A stretch of DNA of 33,600 nt from Thiobacillus sp. 65-1059 (GTDB taxonomy: Bacteria > Pseudomonadota > Gammaproteobacteria > Burkholderiales > Thiobacillaceae), in NCBI GenBank assembly GCA_001897675.1, contig MKUE01000141.1, forward strand, positions 1-33,600, written 5' to 3'. Below, in pieces: positions 1,083 to 8,433 of this stretch. The position numbers and the translations under genes are program-made. The notes beneath the pieces were generated by a model that ran no database searches, was not told where the DNA came from, and saw only the letters and a list, made by a program, of their open reading frames with translations. Position 1 is the first letter of the stretch, and each line of letters opens with the position of its first letter.

Positions 1083-1837
1083 TGCTGGATTTCAATCACC
1101 GTCCCAAGATCCATGAGCTGATCGGCGTGCTCATCGACGCTGCACTAAGCGCCGACCGTGACAACCATTCCCGTCGCAACTACCTCGGTGCGTCGCGATT
1201 GGGCGTCGCCTGCGAGCGCGCGCTGCAATACGAGTATCTCCAAACCCCTGTCGATGCTGGAAGGGAAATCCCGGGTCGCGTGTTGCGCATTTTCGAGGTG
1301 GGACACGCTCTCGAAGAGCTGGCCATTCGTTGGCTGCGCATGGCCGGATTCGATCTGTACACCCAAAAGGCCAGCGGCGGTCAGTTCGGCTTTTCCGTTG
1401 CAGGCGGTCGTATTCAAGGGCACGTCGATGGCGTCCTGAACGGCGGCCCCGCAGAGCTACGAATGAGCTATCCGGCCCTGTGGGAGTGCAAGACCATGAA
1501 CGACAAGTCCTGGCGGGATACGGTCAAGCACGGCGTCAGTAAATCCAAACCGGTCTATGCCGCGCAGATGGCTATCTATCAGGCCTACATGGAAGCCAGC
1601 ATCCCGGGCATTTCCGCGAACCCGGCGTTGTTTACCGCGATCAACAAGGACTCCGAGGAGATCTGGTTCGAGCTGGTGCCGTTCGATGGTGGCCTGGCGC
1701 AGCGGATGTCCGATCGCGCGGTTCGTGTCATCACGGCGACCGACAGCCAGGAACTGTTACCGCGCCATGCGACTACACCGACGCATGTCGAGTGCAAGTT
1801 CTGCCCCTGGCAGGACCGCTGTTGGGGTTCGACATGA
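1082..1837 (+). CDS. PD-(D/E)XK nuclease, RecB/Cas4-like with Fe-S type Cys cluster
   Basis: The 251-aa product starts at an ATG overlapping the previous stop (TGATG). The RecB-family nuclease motifs occur in order: a GHALEE helix (residues 75-79), GHVDGV with D116, WECKTMND supplying E135 and K137, and Q162 in AAQMAIYQ (the RecB QxxxY-like helix). C44 near the N-terminus plus C238, C241 and C247 at the C-terminus form the 1+3 cysteine arrangement that holds a 4Fe-4S cluster in Cas4, AddB and related nucleases. It probably acts as an exonuclease or end-processing nuclease in phage recombination or replication. Its place between the DUF6511 gene and the primase/helicase, with start/stop overlaps on both sides, indicates one operon. 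Polarity and substrate cannot be read from sequence. Confidence 0.85.
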   Translation: MLDFNHRPKIHELIGVLIDAALSADRDNHSRRNYLGASRLGVACERALQYEYLQTPVDAGREIPGRVLRIFEVGHALEELAIRWLRMAGFDLYTQKASGGQFGFSVAGGRIQGHVDGVLNGGPAELRMSYPALWECKTMNDKSWRDTVKHGVSKSKPVYAAQMAIYQAYMEASIPGISANPALFTAINKDSEEIWFELVPFDGGLAQRMSDRAVRVITATDSQELLPRHATTPTHVECKFCPWQDRCWGST

Positions 1838-4023
1838 TGGCCGACAACATCATCTGGCTCGACTTCAACGACGCCCCCGAGCAGCGCGACGAGCTGGCAT
1901 CCGATACCGATGCGCTGCGTGCGGGGCTACTGGACCGGCTCGAAGCCGTTCTCCACTACCTGTTTCCGCAGGGGCGCATCCGAGGTGGAAAGTTCTACGT
2001 CGGCGATGTCGATGGCAACCCTGGCAAGAGTCTGGTGGTTGAACTCGACGGACCACGGCGCGGCCTGTGGAAGGACTTCTCCACCGACGAGGGCGGCGAT
2101 GTCATCGATCTTTGGGCGCGGTCGCAGGGTCGCTCGGCACGCAGCGACTTCCCGCGCATCGCTGGCGAGATCCGGCAGTGGCTCGGTCTTGCTGCACCGA
2201 ACATCACGCCGATGCGCCGCGATGTTCGCAGCGTGCCGATGGACGACCTCGGCGCTTACACCGCCAAGTGGGACTATCTCTCACCCGAGGGCGAACTGAT
2301 CGCCTGCGTCTACCGCTACGACCCACCGACGGGCAAGGAATATCGCCCCTGGGATGTTCGTGCCCGCATGTGGCGCGCGCCCGACCCTAGGCCGCTCTAC
2401 AACCTCCCGGTCATCTCGAGGGCTCGAGAGGTCGTCCTGGTCGAAGGCGAGAAGTGTGCGGCTGCATTGATTGTTTGCGGTATTGCGGCCACCACCGCGA
2501 TGAACGGCGCCAAGGCACCAGTCGACAAAACCGACTGGAGTCCATTGGCCGGGAAATCCGTGGTGATCTGGCCGGACCGGGATGCACCGGGCTGGGACTA
2601 CGCCGAGAGCGCGGCTCGGGCTTGCGTGATGGCAGGCAGCACATCCGTGGCCATCCTGGTGCCGCCCACCGACAAGCCAGCCAAGTGGGATGCCGCAGAC
2701 GCTGTCGACGAAGGTTTCGACTGCGCGACATTCATCGCCCAAGGCGAACGCCGCGTGGTCAAGGCAGCGGCTCCCTCTCTGCCCACCTTCACTCTCGGCG
2801 AACTGCTCGATGACAACTCGCCGCTGCCCCCGGATCTGATCGCTCCGCGCGTGCTGACACCGGCTGGCATGTTGGTGTTCGGTGGCGCACCGAAAGTCGG
2901 CAAGAGCGACTTCCTGCTGTCTTGGCTGGCGCACATGGCTGCAGGCGCTGTATTCCTCGGCATGCAGCCACCCCGTCCGCTGCGCGTGTTCTACCTGCAG
3001 GCCGAGGTCCAGTACCACTACCTGCGCGAGCGCGTGAAGGATGTGCGCCTGCCATCACACCGGCTTTTGGATGCCCGCGCCAACTTCGTCGCCACACCGC
3101 AGTTGCGGCTGGTGCTCGATGACGCAGGGCTGGCGCAGGTGATCCCGGCGATCGCGCAGGCTTTCGGCGGCGAGCCTCCCGACATCATCGCCATCGATCC
3201 GATCCGCAACGTTTTCGACGGCGGTGACGCCGGTGGCGAGAACGACAACGGCGCGATGCTGTTCTTCCTGTCCCAGCGGGTGGAGCGCATTCGCCAGGCA
3301 GTGAATCCGGACGCCGGCGTCATCCTCGCCCACCACACCAAGAAGCTCGGCAAGAAGCAGTTCGAGGAGGACCCGTTCCAGGCACTGGCCGGCGCGGGAA
3401 GTCTGCGCGGCTACTACTCGACCGGGATGTTGTTGTTCAGGCCCGACGAGACCAGAACGACCCGCCAGTTGATCTTTGAGCTGCGCAATGGCGCGGGTAT
3501 CCCGCAACGGCACGTCGACAAGATCAACGGCGAGTGGCGCGAGGTCGATGCCAACGAGCGGCTGGTGATGAAGGACTACGGTCAGCGCTTGGATGCCGAA
3601 CGCCGCCGCAAACGAGACGCGATCCTCCAGATCTTGTTCGAGGAGGCCGGCAACGGGCGCTGCTACACCGCCAACCAGTTCGCTGAGTCCTTCGAGGGCA
3701 AGGCCGGCCTTGGCGGCGAGCGCACCATCCGCGAACGCGTCTCCGCGCTCTCGACGCAGGGCTACATCAAGTATTTCCGCAACGCTGCGGACTACGGTCT
3801 GCCCTCCAGCGGCCGCACCAAGTTCGGCTATCTCTGCGTCGAAGGCATGGTGCTGCGCATGCCTGCGGGCGATGTCGACACGGCCACCGGCGAGCTGCCG
3901 ATGCGCGAGCACACGGTGCTCCCCACCCACTACAAGTGCCCGCATTCCGGCGCCTCGATGCCCGTCGAGAACCCCGAGGTGTGGGTCTACCACGACGAAC
4001 TGAACGACCCGGAGGCCTCATGA
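1834..4023 (+). CDS. Toprim-containing primase / RepA-like hexameric helicase
   Basis: The frame is open from 1792, but ATG 1834 overlaps the upstream TGA (ATGA); ATG 1837 is an equally possible start. The product is about 729 aa. The N-terminal 130 residues resemble the start of zinc-less phage primases (GLWKDFSTDEGGDVIDLWA). A Toprim-like domain follows, with VVLVEGEK near residue 200 and IWPDRDAPG near 250. The RecA-fold ATPase has Walker A GGAPKVGKS at about 350 and Walker B DIIAIDP at about 450, with HHTKK downstream, as in the AAA_25/RSF1010 RepA group. The C-terminus looks like a winged helix (GGERTIRERVSALSTQGYI). It probably primes and unwinds phage DNA. The repeat array starting 16 bases after its stop suggests it may act on or beside an origin there. 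Confidence 0.88.
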   Translation: MMADNIIWLDFNDAPEQRDELASDTDALRAGLLDRLEAVLHYLFPQGRIRGGKFYVGDVDGNPGKSLVVELDGPRRGLWKDFSTDEGGDVIDLWARSQGRSARSDFPRIAGEIRQWLGLAAPNITPMRRDVRSVPMDDLGAYTAKWDYLSPEGELIACVYRYDPPTGKEYRPWDVRARMWRAPDPRPLYNLPVISRAREVVLVEGEKCAAALIVCGIAATTAMNGAKAPVDKTDWSPLAGKSVVIWPDRDAPGWDYAESAARACVMAGSTSVAILVPPTDKPAKWDAADAVDEGFDCATFIAQGERRVVKAAAPSLPTFTLGELLDDNSPLPPDLIAPRVLTPAGMLVFGGAPKVGKSDFLLSWLAHMAAGAVFLGMQPPRPLRVFYLQAEVQYHYLRERVKDVRLPSHRLLDARANFVATPQLRLVLDDAGLAQVIPAIAQAFGGEPPDIIAIDPIRNVFDGGDAGGENDNGAMLFFLSQRVERIRQAVNPDAGVILAHHTKKLGKKQFEEDPFQALAGAGSLRGYYSTGMLLFRPDETRTTRQLIFELRNGAGIPQRHVDKINGEWREVDANERLVMKDYGQRLDAERRRKRDAILQILFEEAGNGRCYTANQFAESFEGKAGLGGERTIRERVSALSTQGYIKYFRNAADYGLPSSGRTKFGYLCVEGMVLRMPAGDVDTATGELPMREHTVLPTHYKCPHSGASMPVENPEVWVYHDELNDPEAS

Positions 4024-4038
4024 ACATTGCCCAATCGG

Positions 4039-4236
4039 CAGTTGGCAGCGTAGTTGCCAACTGCACTCATTTCCTTGCCAACTTCCCGCAGTTGGCAAAC
4101 CCCTGCCAACTGGAACTCCAGTCAGATCAAGGCATTGCAGGGAATGACCCGCAGTTGGCAGTTGGCAACGATGCCAACTTGCCAACTGGCGCAAACCCGC
4201 GTGGTTGCTGGACTTTCTCCCATTCTCCAGTTGGCG
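4039..4236 (+). repeat. array of ten CAGTTGGCA / TGCCAACTG 9-mers (candidate iterons or operators)
   Basis: Plus-oriented copies start at 4039, 4089, 4152, 4159 and 4228 (the last ends in G). Minus-oriented copies start at 4055, 4076, 4104, 4172 and 4180 (two end in TT instead of TG). Several form inverted pairs GTTGGCA-N4 to N7-TGCCAAC (4041/4055, 4091/4104, 4161/4172), and the block 4152-4188 is a nested double dyad of about 37 bp. The array lies directly after the primase/helicase stop and before the conserved part of the RuvC-like gene. Although one frame is open across it, the peptide is low-complexity and the repeats are preserved as DNA in both orientations and different frames. Replication origin iterons, a multi-site operator or a structured leader RNA are the alternatives. 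Confidence 0.8.
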
Positions 4237-4246
4237 AAAACTCCCC

Positions 4247-4296
4247 CTCCTACTACGTAGGAGAGGGACCAGGGGGTCCCTCCACCCTACGTAGGG
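4247..4296 (+). repeat. cluster of nested palindromes next to the 9-mer array
   Basis: CTCCTAC (4247-4253) pairs with GTAGGAG (4257-4263); GGGACC (4265-4270) pairs with GGTCCC (4275-4280); CCCTACGTAGGG (4285-4296) is a perfect palindrome. In addition TACGTAGG (4254-4261) can pair with CCTACGTA (4286-4293) around the middle hairpin, giving one long imperfect stem. No T-tract follows, so an intrinsic terminator is unlikely. An origin secondary structure, a primase recognition site or a regulator-binding site are possible. The bases are read directly; the function is inference. Confidence 0.65.
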
Positions 4297-4337
4297 GGCT
4301 TGCCGGCCACCCGGGATCAGATCATTGGCGGCCATCC

Positions 4338-4799
4338 GTGTCATCGATCCTGGCATTGGATCTCGGCACCCAGACAGGCTGGGCACTGCGCGACCGCGAT
4401 GGCGCAGTGACCAGCGGATCGGAATCCTTCAAGCCGCAGCGCTTCGAGGGTGGCGGCATGCGCTACCTGCGATTCAAACGCTGGCTCACCGAGATCAAGC
4501 AGTCCTGCGACAGCATCGACGCCGTGTACTTCGAGGAGGTGCGCCGCCACGCCGGGGTCGATGCGGCACACGCCTACGGCGGCTTCATGGCCCACCTCAC
4601 CGCATGGTGCGAGCACCACCAGATCCCGTACCAGGGCGTGCCGGTCGGCACGATCAAGAAGCACGCCACCGGCAAGGGCAACGCGAGCAAGGACGACATG
4701 GTCGCCGCCGCCCGCCGCCTTGGCCATGCCCCTGCCGACGACAACGAAGCCGATGCCATTGCCCTCCTGCACTGGGCGATCGAGACGCAGGAGGTGTGA
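4338..4799 (+). CDS. RuvC-like Holliday junction resolvase / RNase H-fold nuclease
   Basis: I start at GTG 4338, giving 153 aa beginning VSSILALDLGTQTGWAL, because the conserved RNase H fold starts there. The frame is open back to an ATG at 4020 (overlapping the primase stop), but those 106 extra residues are just the translation of the repeat and palindrome region. Acidic catalytic residues fit RuvC: D8 in ALDLGT, E66/E67 in VYFEEV, and the C-terminal DDNEADAIAL (D134, D135, D139). Small RuvC-like proteins in phage early operons resolve branched recombination or replication intermediates. It is followed one base after its stop by the 70-aa gene. The start is the uncertain part; the family call is firm. 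Confidence 0.83.
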   Translation: MSSILALDLGTQTGWALRDRDGAVTSGSESFKPQRFEGGGMRYLRFKRWLTEIKQSCDSIDAVYFEEVRRHAGVDAAHAYGGFMAHLTAWCEHHQIPYQGVPVGTIKKHATGKGNASKDDMVAAARRLGHAPADDNEADAIALLHWAIETQEV

Positions 4800-4800
4800 C

Positions 4801-5013
4801 ATGAAGGTTCCGACTCCCGCATACCGCTGTGCCCTGGCTCGACTGCAGCCCGATCCGCGCCCCGATCCAGAGCAGATCAAGCGCGAGGGCTGGCGCGACC
4901 AACAGATCCTGGTGATCTCGCCTGACGACACCCGACTCGACTGGGTAGAACGTGAACTGCTTCGCCGGATCGGCGATCGGCTGTACGGGCCGAAGGAGCG
5001 TCGACATGGCTGA
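4801..5013 (+). CDS. hypothetical 70-aa phage protein
   Basis: ATG 4801 lies one base after the resolvase stop; the AGGAGGTG just upstream, inside the resolvase 3' end, is a plausible Shine-Dalgarno. The product starts MKVPTPAYRCALARLQPDP and contains an acidic/hydrophobic stretch, ILVISPDDTRLDWVERELL, then a basic tail. No enzymatic motif, membrane segment or signal peptide is visible. It overlaps the next gene by 8 bases, so it belongs to the same operon. I recall similar short proteins in the same slot of other prophages, but no function. Confidence 0.6.
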   Translation: MKVPTPAYRCALARLQPDPRPDPEQIKREGWRDQQILVISPDDTRLDWVERELLRRIGDRLYGPKERRHG

Positions 5014-5410: not shown

Positions 5411-5548
5411 CGTTGCGTGTAGTTGCGAACAATCGCGACGCCGTTCGGAATCCTGCGTGCCGATGCGGGTTTCAGTCACTTTTTGGCGTGCAACATCCTG
5501 AGGCTTTTTCGCTAGTATTACGGCTAATCTTGCGAGCATTGGGTGCGT

Positions 5549-5576
5549 GAAGGCCACGGAGCGATCTGTGGCCTTC
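5549..5576 (+). terminator. hairpin GAAGGCCAC / GTGGCCTTC, probable end of early operon
   Basis: A perfect 9-bp stem (5549-5557 with 5568-5576) with a 10-base loop, followed by GTCGTTTCCC rather than a clean T-run. It lies 138 bp after the last early gene. A weak intrinsic terminator or RNA-stabilising hairpin fits best. Confidence 0.5.
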
Positions 5577-5675
5577 GTCGTTTCCCGCCCTCGATGGTCA
5601 TGCCCCGTTGCGACGGGTCCTTCCTGGCCAGAAAGCAATGCGGGGGGCGCGAGCGCGGCGCTTTTTTAGCGTCAG

Positions 5676-5728
5676 GGTGCGAACCAAGGTTCGCACGGTT
5701 CGCAGTTCGCACCCCGCCAGTTCGCACC
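5676..5728 (+). repeat. short-repeat cluster GTTCGCA (four direct, one inverted)
   Basis: Direct copies lie at 5688-5696 (GGTTCGCAC), 5697-5704 (GGTTCGCA), 5705-5712 (GTTCGCAC) and 5720-5728 (GTTCGCACC); an inverted copy GGTGCGAACC lies at 5676-5685 and forms a dyad with the first direct copy. Spacing between direct copies is 8-9 bp, then 15 bp. The motif differs from the 4039-4236 array. Position about 60 bp before the methyltransferase start suggests an operator for that gene pair; this is inference. Confidence 0.6.
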
Positions 5729-5734
5729 AACCCC

Positions 5735-5768
5735 AAAACCCGCCCACGGTTTGTCGTCGGCGGGTTTT
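5735..5768 (+). terminator. hairpin AAAACCCGCC / GGCGGGTTTT in methyltransferase leader (copy 1 of 3)
   Basis: A 10-bp stem (5735-5744 with 5759-5768) with a 14-base loop, 20 bases ahead of the TTG start of the first methyltransferase. The same stem sequence recurs at 17440-17460 and 31255-31279. It looks like an intrinsic terminator with a short T-run, but any promoter for the downstream gene would have to lie upstream, so readthrough must occur. Confidence 0.6.
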
Positions 5769-5788
5769 CTATTTTCAGGACACCATCT

Positions 5789-7201
5789 TTGAATACGCTC
5801 AACGTCGAGTACCGCAAGGTCGAGGCGCTGATTCCCTACGCCCGCAATCCGCGCACACATTCCGATGCGCAGATCACCAAGATCGCCGCCAGCATCGTCG
5901 AATATGGCTGGACGAACCCGGTCCTGGTTGATGGCGACAACGGCATCATCGCGGGCCACGGTCGTTTGGCTGCCGCACGCAAGCTGGGGCTGGATCAGGT
6001 GCCGGTGATCGAACTGGCCCATCTCACCACCGCACAAAAGCGCGCCTTGGTCATCGCCGACAACCGGCTGGCGCTTGACGCTGGCTGGGATGAGGAGATG
6101 TTGGCGCTCGAACTGGCGGAGCTTTCCGAAGCGGGTTTCGAACTGGCGCTGACCGGCTTTGAGAACATCGAGATCGATGCGCTGCTGGCAGATGCCCCGT
6201 CGACTGAAGGTGAACCGGCGGCGCAGGATGGTGTAGACGCCGATGAACCCGATACGACCGATGACGTACCTGACACGCCAGTGGTGGCGGTGTCGCGCGA
6301 GGGAGATGTCTGGGCCATCGGCTCGCACCGGTTGATCTGTGGCGACGCCACCGACCCAGCCGTGGTCGCCACGCTGATGCAGGGTGACACCGCGCAGCTT
6401 TGCTTCACCTCGCCGCCGTATGGCAACCAGCGCGACTACACCTCCGGCGGCATTGCCGATTGGGATGTCCTGATGCGCGGTGTGTTCGCACATCTGCCGA
6501 TGGCGGGCGACGGACAGGTGCTGGTCAATCTTGGGCTGATCCACCGCGACAACGAAGTCATCCCCTATTGGGACGGCTGGCTGTCCTGGATGCGTCAGCA
6601 AGGGTGGCGGCGCTTCGCGTGGTACGTCTGGGATCAGGGGCCCGGCATGCCCGGCGACTGGCAGGGCCGATTGGCTCCCAGCTTCGAGTTTGTTTTCCAC
6701 TTCAATCGCAGCACCCGCAAACCCAACAAGATTGTTCCTTGCAAGCACGCAGGCCAGGAATCGCACCTGCGCGCTGACGGGTCGTCCACGGCGATGCGCG
6801 GTAAGGATGGCGAGGTCGGCGGCTGGACGCACAAGGGTCAGCCGACGCAGGACACCCGAATCCCCGACTCAGTGATTCGCGTGATGCGCCACAAGGGCAA
6901 GATCGGTCAGGACATTGATCACCCCGCCGTCTTCCCGGTGGCGTTGCCGGAGTTCGCCATCGAGTCCTACACCGACGCCGGAGACATCGTTTTCGAGCCG
7001 TTCGGCGGCAGTGGCACGACGATGCTGGCCGCGCAGCGCACTGGCCGCATTTGTCGCAGCGTCGAGATTGCGCCGGAGTACGTGGACGTGGCCATCAAGC
7101 GCTTTCAGCAAAACCACCTCGGCGTGCCGGTCACGCTCATCGCCACCGGCCAATCTTTCGACGAGATCGCCACTGAACGCGAAATGGAGGTGGCGGCATG
7201 A
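5789..7201 (+). CDS. ParB-domain DNA methyltransferase, SPPY type (beta class, probably m4C)
   Basis: I chose TTG 5789, which has CAGGA eight bases upstream and begins LNTLNVEYRKVEALIPYARN; the longer frame upstream translates hairpins. Product 470 aa. Residues about 1-135 form a ParB/Srx-like domain (NPRTHSDAQITKIAASI, GIIAGHGRLAAARKLG, ALVIADNRLA). After an acidic linker comes the methyltransferase: TSPPYG (catalytic motif IV, about residues 207-212), a long variable target-recognition region, then the AdoMet-binding FEPFGGSGTT (about 402-411). Motif IV before motif I means class beta; SPPY favours N4-cytosine methylation. It is translationally coupled to a second ParB-methyltransferase and no restriction enzyme is nearby, so an orphan, phage-protective methylase is likely. 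The target site is unknown. Confidence 0.87.
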   Translation: MNTLNVEYRKVEALIPYARNPRTHSDAQITKIAASIVEYGWTNPVLVDGDNGIIAGHGRLAAARKLGLDQVPVIELAHLTTAQKRALVIADNRLALDAGWDEEMLALELAELSEAGFELALTGFENIEIDALLADAPSTEGEPAAQDGVDADEPDTTDDVPDTPVVAVSREGDVWAIGSHRLICGDATDPAVVATLMQGDTAQLCFTSPPYGNQRDYTSGGIADWDVLMRGVFAHLPMAGDGQVLVNLGLIHRDNEVIPYWDGWLSWMRQQGWRRFAWYVWDQGPGMPGDWQGRLAPSFEFVFHFNRSTRKPNKIVPCKHAGQESHLRADGSSTAMRGKDGEVGGWTHKGQPTQDTRIPDSVIRVMRHKGKIGQDIDHPAVFPVALPEFAIESYTDAGDIVFEPFGGSGTTMLAAQRTGRICRSVEIAPEYVDVAIKRFQQNHLGVPVTLIATGQSFDEIATEREMEVAA

Positions 7202-8433
7202 ACTGGCTGGCCGACAAGATCGAGCAGTGGCCGACAGCCAAACTGCTGCCCTATGTCCGCAATGCGCGGACGCACTCGGATGATCAGGTGGCGCAGATCG
7301 CTGCATCGATTGCCGAGTTTGGCTTCACCAATCCGATCCTTGCGGGCAGTGACGGCATCATCGTCGCTGGGCATGGCCGCTTGGCCGCCGCGCAGAAACT
7401 CGGGCTGGAAATCGTGCCCGTGGTCGTACTGGATCACCTGAGCCCGACCCAACGCCGCGCCTTGGTCATCGCAGACAACCGCATCGCGGAGAACGCTGGC
7501 TGGGATGACGCGATGTTGCGGATCGAACTTGAGGCCTTGCAGCTGGAAGGTTTCGATCTGGACATCACCGGCTTCGATGCCGACGCGCTGGCCGAACTGA
7601 TCTCGGGCGACGAGCCGGACAACGAGGGTCAGACCGACGAGGACGCGGTGCCGGAGGTCAGCGAGACACCCATCTCGCGCCCGGGCGATGTCTGGATCAT
7701 GGGCCAGCACCGGCTGCTGTGCGGCGACTCGACCGTGGCCGAGAGCTATGCCCGGCTGATGCAGGGCGACGTGGCAGACATGGTCTTCACCGACCCGCCG
7801 TACAACGTGAACTACGCCAACAGCGCCAAGGACAAGATGCGCGGCAAGGATCGCGCGATCCTCAACGACAACCTGGGTGACGGTTTCTACGACTTCCTGC
7901 TTGCAGCATTGACGCCCACCGTGGCGAACTGCCGGGGCGGTATCTATGTAGCGATGTCATCCAGCGAACTAGATGTGCTGCAGGCAGCCTTTCGCGCCGC
8001 CGGTGGCAAGTGGTCGACGTTCATCATCTGGGCCAAGAACACCTTCACGCTGGGCCGTGCCGACTACCAGCGCCAGTACGAACCGATCTTGTACGGATGG
8101 CCCGAGGGTGCGCAACGCCACTGGTGTGGTGACCGCGATCAGGGCGATGTGTGGGCTATCAAGAAGCCGCAGAAGAACGATCTGCATCCGACGATGAAGC
8201 CGGTGGAGCTGGTCGAGCGAGCCATCCGCAATTCGAGCCGCCCGGGTAACGTGGTGCTCGATCCGTTCGGTGGTTCTGGCACAACGTTGATTGCGGCCGA
8301 AAAGTCAGGTCGCGTCGCGCGGCTGATCGAACTCGATCCGAAGTACGTGGATGTGATCGTGCGCCGGTGGGAGGACTTCACCGGCCAGACGGCTATCCGC
8401 GAGGCAGCAGACCAGGAAGTGTGCGCCAGTTGA
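7198..8433 (+). CDS. ParB-domain DNA methyltransferase, DPPY type (beta class, m6A or m4C)
   Basis: ATG 7198 overlaps the stop of the preceding methyltransferase. Product 411 aa, with an N-terminal ParB-like domain clearly paralogous to its neighbour (RNARTHSDDQVAQIAASIAE, GHGRLAAAQKLGL, RALVIADNRIAENAGWDD). Catalytic motif IV is DPPYN (from about residue 199) and the AdoMet loop is LDPFGGSGTT (about 354-363), again class beta; DPPY is more usual for N6-adenine enzymes. The ParB domain may bind or nick DNA, or only help DNA binding; in phages this fusion is common. The last 41 bases overlap the 3' end of a convergent minus-strand gene. Different motif IV and target regions indicate the pair modifies two different sequences (inference). 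Confidence 0.88.
   Translation: MNWLADKIEQWPTAKLLPYVRNARTHSDDQVAQIAASIAEFGFTNPILAGSDGIIVAGHGRLAAAQKLGLEIVPVVVLDHLSPTQRRALVIADNRIAENAGWDDAMLRIELEALQLEGFDLDITGFDADALAELISGDEPDNEGQTDEDAVPEVSETPISRPGDVWIMGQHRLLCGDSTVAESYARLMQGDVADMVFTDPPYNVNYANSAKDKMRGKDRAILNDNLGDGFYDFLLAALTPTVANCRGGIYVAMSSSELDVLQAAFRAAGGKWSTFIIWAKNTFTLGRADYQRQYEPILYGWPEGAQRHWCGDRDQGDVWAIKKPQKNDLHPTMKPVELVERAIRNSSRPGNVVLDPFGGSGTTLIAAEKSGRVARLIELDPKYVDVIVRRWEDFTGQTAIREAADQEVCAS

Follow-up and report, generated by a model that had tools for sequence, protein, structure and literature searches.

The window (the whole 33.6 kb stretch of DNA analysed here) encodes a primase-helicase on the plus strand at 1792..4023, comprising an N-terminal primase part and an AAA_25 helicase core (Pfam AAA_25, 3.8e-20). 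The start codon is GTG 1792 or ATG 1834/1837 and the stop is TGA 4021-4023. The protein matches PHROG primase/helicase and DNA primase families, none of which is named RepB'; the match to PHROG 239 (DNA primase/helicase) has an E-value of 7e-69 and spans residues 29-726 in the 728-aa form. From its motifs the primase part is presumably of the toprim class. The C-terminal domain (3517..4020, plus strand; residues 576-743, numbered from GTG 1792) contains a predicted winged helix and is the proposed binder of the repeats described below. A PDB sequence search with the full primase-helicase returned no match up to E 1 and a search with the C-terminal profile found one weak chain (E 0.57); the modelled domain aligns to winged helices, and 1ka8 was not among the best 50 matches listed. 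The recognition helix (residues 643-656; 3718..3759, plus strand) corresponds to helix H68-81 of the predicted model and is also indicated by covariation; Arg644 (codon 3721-3723, plus strand) and Arg647 (codon 3730-3732, plus strand) both fall within it in the model. Among 50,697 phage records the C-terminal domain has only four matches, all in Wolbachia phage WO records.

Directly behind this gene lies a dense array of short repeats. An earlier note, made from the letters of this DNA, had described ten 9-mer sites, five per strand, three of them with a terminal base change, and a motif scan of the window allowing at most one mismatch to CAGTTGGCA recovers exactly this set within 4039-4236. 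On the plus strand, sites 1 (4039..4047), 4 (4089..4097), 6 (4152..4160) and 7 (4159..4167, overlapping site 6) read CAGTTGGCA, and site 10 (4228..4236), which is nearest to the hairpin, reads CAGTTGGCG. On the minus strand, sites 2 (4055..4063), 5 (4104..4112) and 9 (4180..4188) read CAGTTGGCA, and sites 3 (4076..4084) and 8 (4172..4180) read AAGTTGGCA; the single end-base changes are those in the sites starting at 4076, 4172 and 4228. The whole 33.6 kb contains 25 CAGTTGGCA-type matches compared with 10.1 +/- 3.1 after shuffling (25 was reached in 0 of 100 shuffles), the remaining 15 being scattered over the window outside the array. All seven copies of the exact 9-mer in the window are within the array, and the exact inverted pair AGTTGGCA-N0-30-TGCCAACT is found at two loci only in the 2.9 Mb host genome, namely the window array and contig C68.

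The interval 4039-4236 given in the earlier note holds the sites as it stated, but the feature is longer, because an IHF-like site and hairpins belong to the same module. The IHF-like site, GATCAAGGCATTG (4125..4137, plus strand), lies between sites 5 and 6 and has one mismatch to WATCAANNNNTTR, which we take to be the IHF consensus. Beyond site 10 are a first hairpin, HP1 (CTCCTAC[TAC]GTAGGAG, 4247..4263), whose minus-strand loop GTA is a GNA triloop, and a second, HP2 (GAGGGACC[AGGG]GGTCCCTC, 4263..4282), which appears in predicted folds. A third palindrome, CCCTACGTAGGG (4285..4296), was read from the sequence and pairs with the HP1 arm in predicted folds. The order of the module is about five sites, the IHF-like site, about five further sites, HP1 (usually 8-11 nt further on) and the second hairpin.

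The earlier note placed the array between the primase-helicase stop and a RuvC-like gene. It does lie behind the stop, but it is also inside an open reading frame (4020..4799, plus strand) that overlaps the primase-helicase gene by ATGA at 4020, passes through the module and enters the RuvC-like domain from about 4350 (PHROG 159 RuvC-like, 1.2e-34, residues 110-258). Of 271 readable loci, 143 have the ATGA frame open into the RuvC-like domain. In 9 others the two are in frame but interrupted by stops, in 44 they are out of frame, the overlap is missing from 34, and 41 have no RuvC motif. Translation of the array as a conserved peptide, which had been named as an argument against an origin, was rejected, as the array is without codon periodicity: the values for the three codon positions are 0.393/0.400/0.404, with no third-position bias, compared with 0.170/0.165/0.479 in the RuvC domain, and the synonymous share is 0.11 in the array part versus 0.57 in the RuvC domain. 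The array part probably forms a leader that is translated but not conserved. In an alphaproteobacterial relative (L144:8401-8784) a DUF6362 gene is located behind the array (E 2.7e-32), and no RuvC-like start motif was recognised between the two. Elsewhere in the window two adjacent genes (5543-7201 and 7198-8433) each encode a weak ParB-N-like match fused to an N6/N4 DNA methylase.

Most relatives with this primase C-terminus carry an array, a point that the earlier note had put forward for checking. With the primase-helicase as query we collected 80 viral and 76 genome loci, and divergent queries added more; the record titles of the genome loci name alpha-, beta- and gammaproteobacteria among others, some being metagenome bins with odd labels. 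A 7-mer is present at least five times behind the gene in 134 of 140 scored loci (17 of 157 were too short or ambiguous and were left out), and control stretches within the gene reach at most 5. In eight of the 140 (L076, L099, L111, L112, L145, L147, L156 and L157) the count is no higher than in the best of 40 dinucleotide shuffles. A hidden Markov model (HMM) of the C-terminal domain identified it in 298 of 389 loci, 271 of which are readable downstream and represent 226 unique arrays (L001 is the window itself); the set contains duplicates, and the main counts are given for all loci and for unique loci. Scores above the maximum of 60 control gene stretches (6.8) are reached by 185 of the 226 unique readable loci, and 41 do not exceed it. 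With a loose cut at a site score of 5, 254 of 271 loci pass (213 of 226 unique) and 17 (13 unique) fail; among the controls, 11 of 60 gene stretches pass but none of the 60 shuffled arrays.

The site motif exists in 40 versions across these relatives, with a constant layout in which the sites change as a set. The first and last sites lie at a median of 19 and 207 nt behind the gene stop, and at least two sites are present on each strand in 251 of 254 loci, the array running in both orientations unlike one-way direct repeats. Inverted pairs of AGTTGGC occur in 14 of 17 phage records (39-63 kb, possibly incomplete), in each case within one stretch of less than 320 bp, and the remaining three (L238, L259 and L270) bear other motifs. 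Four loci (L064, L066, L068 and L069) possess an additional half-array of AGTTGGCA sites upstream, about 120 nt before the main array. In L025 and L028 the array is retained and the hairpins and RuvC-like start are swapped for another version, out of frame, which is a recombination joint between array and hairpin.

The IHF-like site recurs among the relatives. WATCAANNNNTTR is perfect in 83 of 251 arrays (66 of 210 unique arrays) and has one mismatch in 99 more, compared with 4 perfect and 39 one-mismatch occurrences in shuffled arrays and 0 and 13 in gene stretches (251 of each). Five sites lie to the left of at least 113 of these 182 good matches, and 175 of them point the same way; the other 69 arrays, with at least two mismatches, match no better than expected by chance. 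It is reasonably likely that IHF bends the DNA at the centre of the array.

Of 251 loci, 195 carry a TNC triloop in the hairpin that comes first behind the last site, and 18 lack a hairpin; TNC accounts for 195 of the 201 triloops and is found in 160 of 209 unique loci. The HP1 loop in the module is a 3-nt TAC or TTC, which reads GTA or GAA on the opposite strand. When 59 non-redundant loci are considered, 33 have TNC, 3 TNNC, 5 TAAA and 8 other loops, and 10 have none; 747 control gene segments gave 60 hairpins, one of them with TNC. Of 207 loci, 155 have HP1 starting 8-11 nt past the called site before it, and in 32 this distance is 59 nt. Its stems vary in sequence, yet 23 of 26 distinct hairpins are perfectly paired and G-T pairs occur in none. 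On the minus strand the HP1-type loops read GNA or GNNA, loops that are described as a class of unusually stable DNA mini-hairpins in a passage of PMC4686876 and are likewise treated in part of PMC10527192; this suggests that HP1 may be selected as single-stranded DNA. Minimum-energy DNA folds of the window module have z -3.96 on the minus strand and -2.93 on the plus strand, and contain HP2. Against HP1, the minimum-energy folds of both window strands pair its arm with the third palindrome instead. Priming at HP1 is a tentative proposal from these features, to which we give slightly less than an even chance.

To relate the array to a protein, we scanned motif positions against C-terminal residues in 56 loci that are non-redundant at 80%. 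The strongest pair is residue 644 with base 7 (z 11.2); base 6 with Arg647 (z 6.0) ranks only tenth, behind for example base 5 with R604 (z 8.3). A two-residue rule could be counted in 252 of the 254 loci. Arg644 is accompanied by G7 in 198 of 198 loci (165/165 unique; 159/159 unique above the control maximum), Arg644 with Arg647 by G6 in 155 of 156 (127/128; 122/123) and Arg644 with Asn647 by T6 in 35 of 35 (30/30; 30/30). The sole exception for Arg647 and G6 is L284, whose motif, AGCTTGGC, retains TTGGC but out of register. The 54 of 252 loci without Arg644 (4 of them gapped there) are mixed and no rule could be stated for them, G7 still being present in 17.

The codons of the winged helix adjoin the array, and linkage alone would therefore yield some correlation. 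We built a C-terminal domain tree that excluded residues 640-650 and the locus L284. On it, the switch between Arg-G and Asn-T requires 8 steps each for the residue, the base and the two combined, and the switches therefore coincide. Ranking of pairs by co-change on the tree places R647 with base 6 and A631 with base 8 in a tie for first (0.61), followed by R644 with base 7 (0.58); an earlier count, now superseded, in which ties were broken arbitrarily, had R647 with base 5 as best and V732, V687 and A665 near-equal. A held-out set of 210 new loci (160 readable) provided 32 unique arrays less than 95% identical to the training arrays, 9 of which are unclear by the loose cut. Sixteen held-out loci were predictable, and 15 were correct at both bases; the sixteenth (L487, R644/R647) is among the nine and has no clear array. 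This is a moderate test, because identity to a training array is 68-93% for most of the 15 (one is unmatched) and only 6 score above 6.8. Taking these correlations together, the binder of the array is very probably the primase-helicase itself, acting through its C-terminal winged helix.

Relatives with other primase C-termini differ in the sequence behind the gene. The AcaML1 primase matches the window primase-helicase over residues 23-334 only, and 73 of 76 readable AcaML1-type regions are without any of three motif versions, the other 3 having one. A RuvC-like start motif is nevertheless found within 500 nt in 74 of these 76 regions, and the RuvC-like protein was rejected as the binder because its start motif follows these site-free primases too. 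AcaML1-type phages (L082:7375-7515, L153, L154 and entries among L309-L388) have a different inverted-repeat block behind the primase, for example of CCGTCAG or GGTCACC, which is possibly their own origin. In wMel-type WO prophage the RepA match ends at residue 587 and there is no array behind it, whereas WOVitB RepA has the full C-terminus and the array is present. In one wMel-type locus (L161:2131-2413) a separate short ORF matches the part of the C-terminal HMM before the winged helix only, again with no array. The RepA proteins of WOVitA/B show 34% identity to the window protein overall and 41-44% over the C-terminal domain, and prophage WO has a AAGTTGGCA/AAGATGGCA array behind RepA with a perfect IHF-like site, but an AT-rich hairpin instead of the TNC loop. 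Its annotation gives RepA and names no origin, and origin passages in a WO review (PMC9203015) concern the bacterial origin.

The array, its co-change with two recognition-helix residues, the IHF-like site, and the loop, pairing and spacing of HP1 are established by this comparison of relatives. We infer from it, with good confidence, that the module at 4039-4300 is a cis-acting replication origin bound by the primase-helicase, and hold it equally likely that this reading extends to a large, mostly uncultivated prophage family. The candidate origin of the earlier note is thus supported, having survived the checks on array conservation and on a conserved peptide. The C-terminal winged helix of the upstream-encoded primase-helicase would bind about ten AGTTGGCA sites, with Arg644 reading G7, Arg647 reading G6 and, in relatives, Asn647 reading the A opposite T6. 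Binding of IHF would bend the array centre and bring the two half-arrays together, and helicase loaded from the hairpin-proximal site would open the flanking DNA. The exposed single strand would then fold into HP1/HP2, which the primase domain would use to begin synthesis.

On balance we lean slightly towards a fuller version of this origin reading, a self-contained cassette in which one protein would be primase, helicase and site reader, a two-residue code would set the ten-site array, at least 8 Arg/G-Asn/T switches would have created mutually distinct origins, and the priming hairpin would be selected as single-stranded DNA (GNA/GNNA loops, no wobble) and not as RNA. For a prophage family that record titles place in alpha-, beta- and gammaproteobacteria, the module would supply a probable origin together with the specificity of its initiator. 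The residue-base rule makes origin recognition and the compatibility of co-resident prophages testable using natural variants, as it does the role of DNA hairpins in priming, and raises the question of how ten sites shift together at each single-residue change.

The earlier note knew of no description of such a two-way, palindromic array, but the crr of phage P4 (NC_001609) is a precedent for one behind a primase-helicase gene. As in the window, two-way short repeats lie directly behind the gene: crr follows alpha and consists of ten type-I octamers in both orientations (+ + - - + twice). P4 differs in having a separate ori (rep_origin) about 4.5 kb away, with 120-bp direct repeats and TGTTCACC-type sites; its array is needed in cis, but the ori is elsewhere. 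The P4 alpha helicase is SF3-type, unlike the window helicase, which matches AAA_25, and comparison of the C-terminal domain with the P4 alpha C-terminus detected no sequence relation (hhalign probability 0.2). A passage in PMC4234260 describes P4 alpha as a Toprim-type primase-helicase whose winged helix binds the repeats. By analogy the array could be an accessory region, bound by the primase-helicase for copy control or helicase loading, with initiation at a separate ori. We consider this unlikely: no second cluster of the motif, and hence no separate ori with the same repeats, was found in the window or in any of the 14 matching phage records (of 17, each 39-63 kb and possibly incomplete), and the module's IHF-like site and its hairpin, whose spacing is nearly fixed, are not features that an accessory region requires. 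P4 crr remains the closest precedent for the proposed origin, and as no second cluster was found, ori and crr seem to be merged here, with hairpins added.

It is very unlikely that the sites are operators controlling transcription of the replication operon or the RuvC-like gene. Dense inverted pairs can serve as operators, and autoregulation by initiators is common. Here, however, the sites follow rather than precede the gene with whose product they co-vary, a simple scan found no sigma70-like promoter in 3800-4800, and the downstream gene varies (it is DUF6362 in L144). The only terminator-like site that a scan picked up is on the minus strand and outside the module. Still less probable is that the RuvC-like gene is controlled by a structured leader RNA or an attenuator. 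As parts of the overlap, HP1 and HP2 would be included in the operon transcript, and TAC/TTC loops, once extended by G, are similar to UNCG loops, but T-A-closed stems (T[TAC]A) cannot make UNCG, 23 of the 26 HP1 versions are perfectly Watson-Crick paired and none of the 26 has a G-T pair, and the array co-varies with residues of a helix that reads DNA; in a search for known RNAs no Rfam family reached its gathering score. Finally, it is extremely improbable that winged helix and array, which are contiguous (the first site is about 20 nt behind the stop), simply recombine together without contact, since the strongest pair by z is on the recognition helix and chemically sensible (Arg-G, Asn-A), and 8 residue steps coincide with 8 base steps on the helix-free tree.

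The proposed origin shares with iteron-type origins repeated sites near an initiator gene that, by sequence comparison, the initiator reads, but in place of direct repeats in one orientation its sites run in both (251 of 254 loci). Replication of RSF1010 involves a helicase, a primase and a repeat binder, and its oriV iterons are direct. The hairpin with conserved loop and spacing in our module may be analogous to the primase-specific hairpins of RSF1010. As described in part of PMC4434180, the RSF1010 primase recognises one specific single-strand initiation site on each strand, a 40-nt sequence that bears a hairpin, and this primase, RepB', is AEP-type. RepA, RepB' and RepC of RSF1010 (IncQ) are three separate proteins (a passage of PMC4234260), unlike the single primase-helicase here. 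According to the same source, the archaeal plasmid pRN1 and phage BIP-1 each have a gene that joins primase, helicase and winged helix, and directly 3' of it a putative origin with a stem-loop; in pRN1 the stem-loop is essential. They are unlike the window in having an AEP primase, an SF3 helicase and no iterons, the stem-loop of pRN1 being of 100 nt. No description of the whole module was found in the literature searched (open-licence PMC).

The cumulative GC skew of the window has a shallow minimum (-0.09) in bin 4001-5000; the skew is weak and was not relied on. The second array of the host genome (contig C68:24414-24553, L599) is of the same type and lies behind a primase-helicase that is 84% identical over residues 235-726. 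Its hairpin loop is TTC, not TAC, and the genome possesses two co-resident putative origins that share one site sequence.
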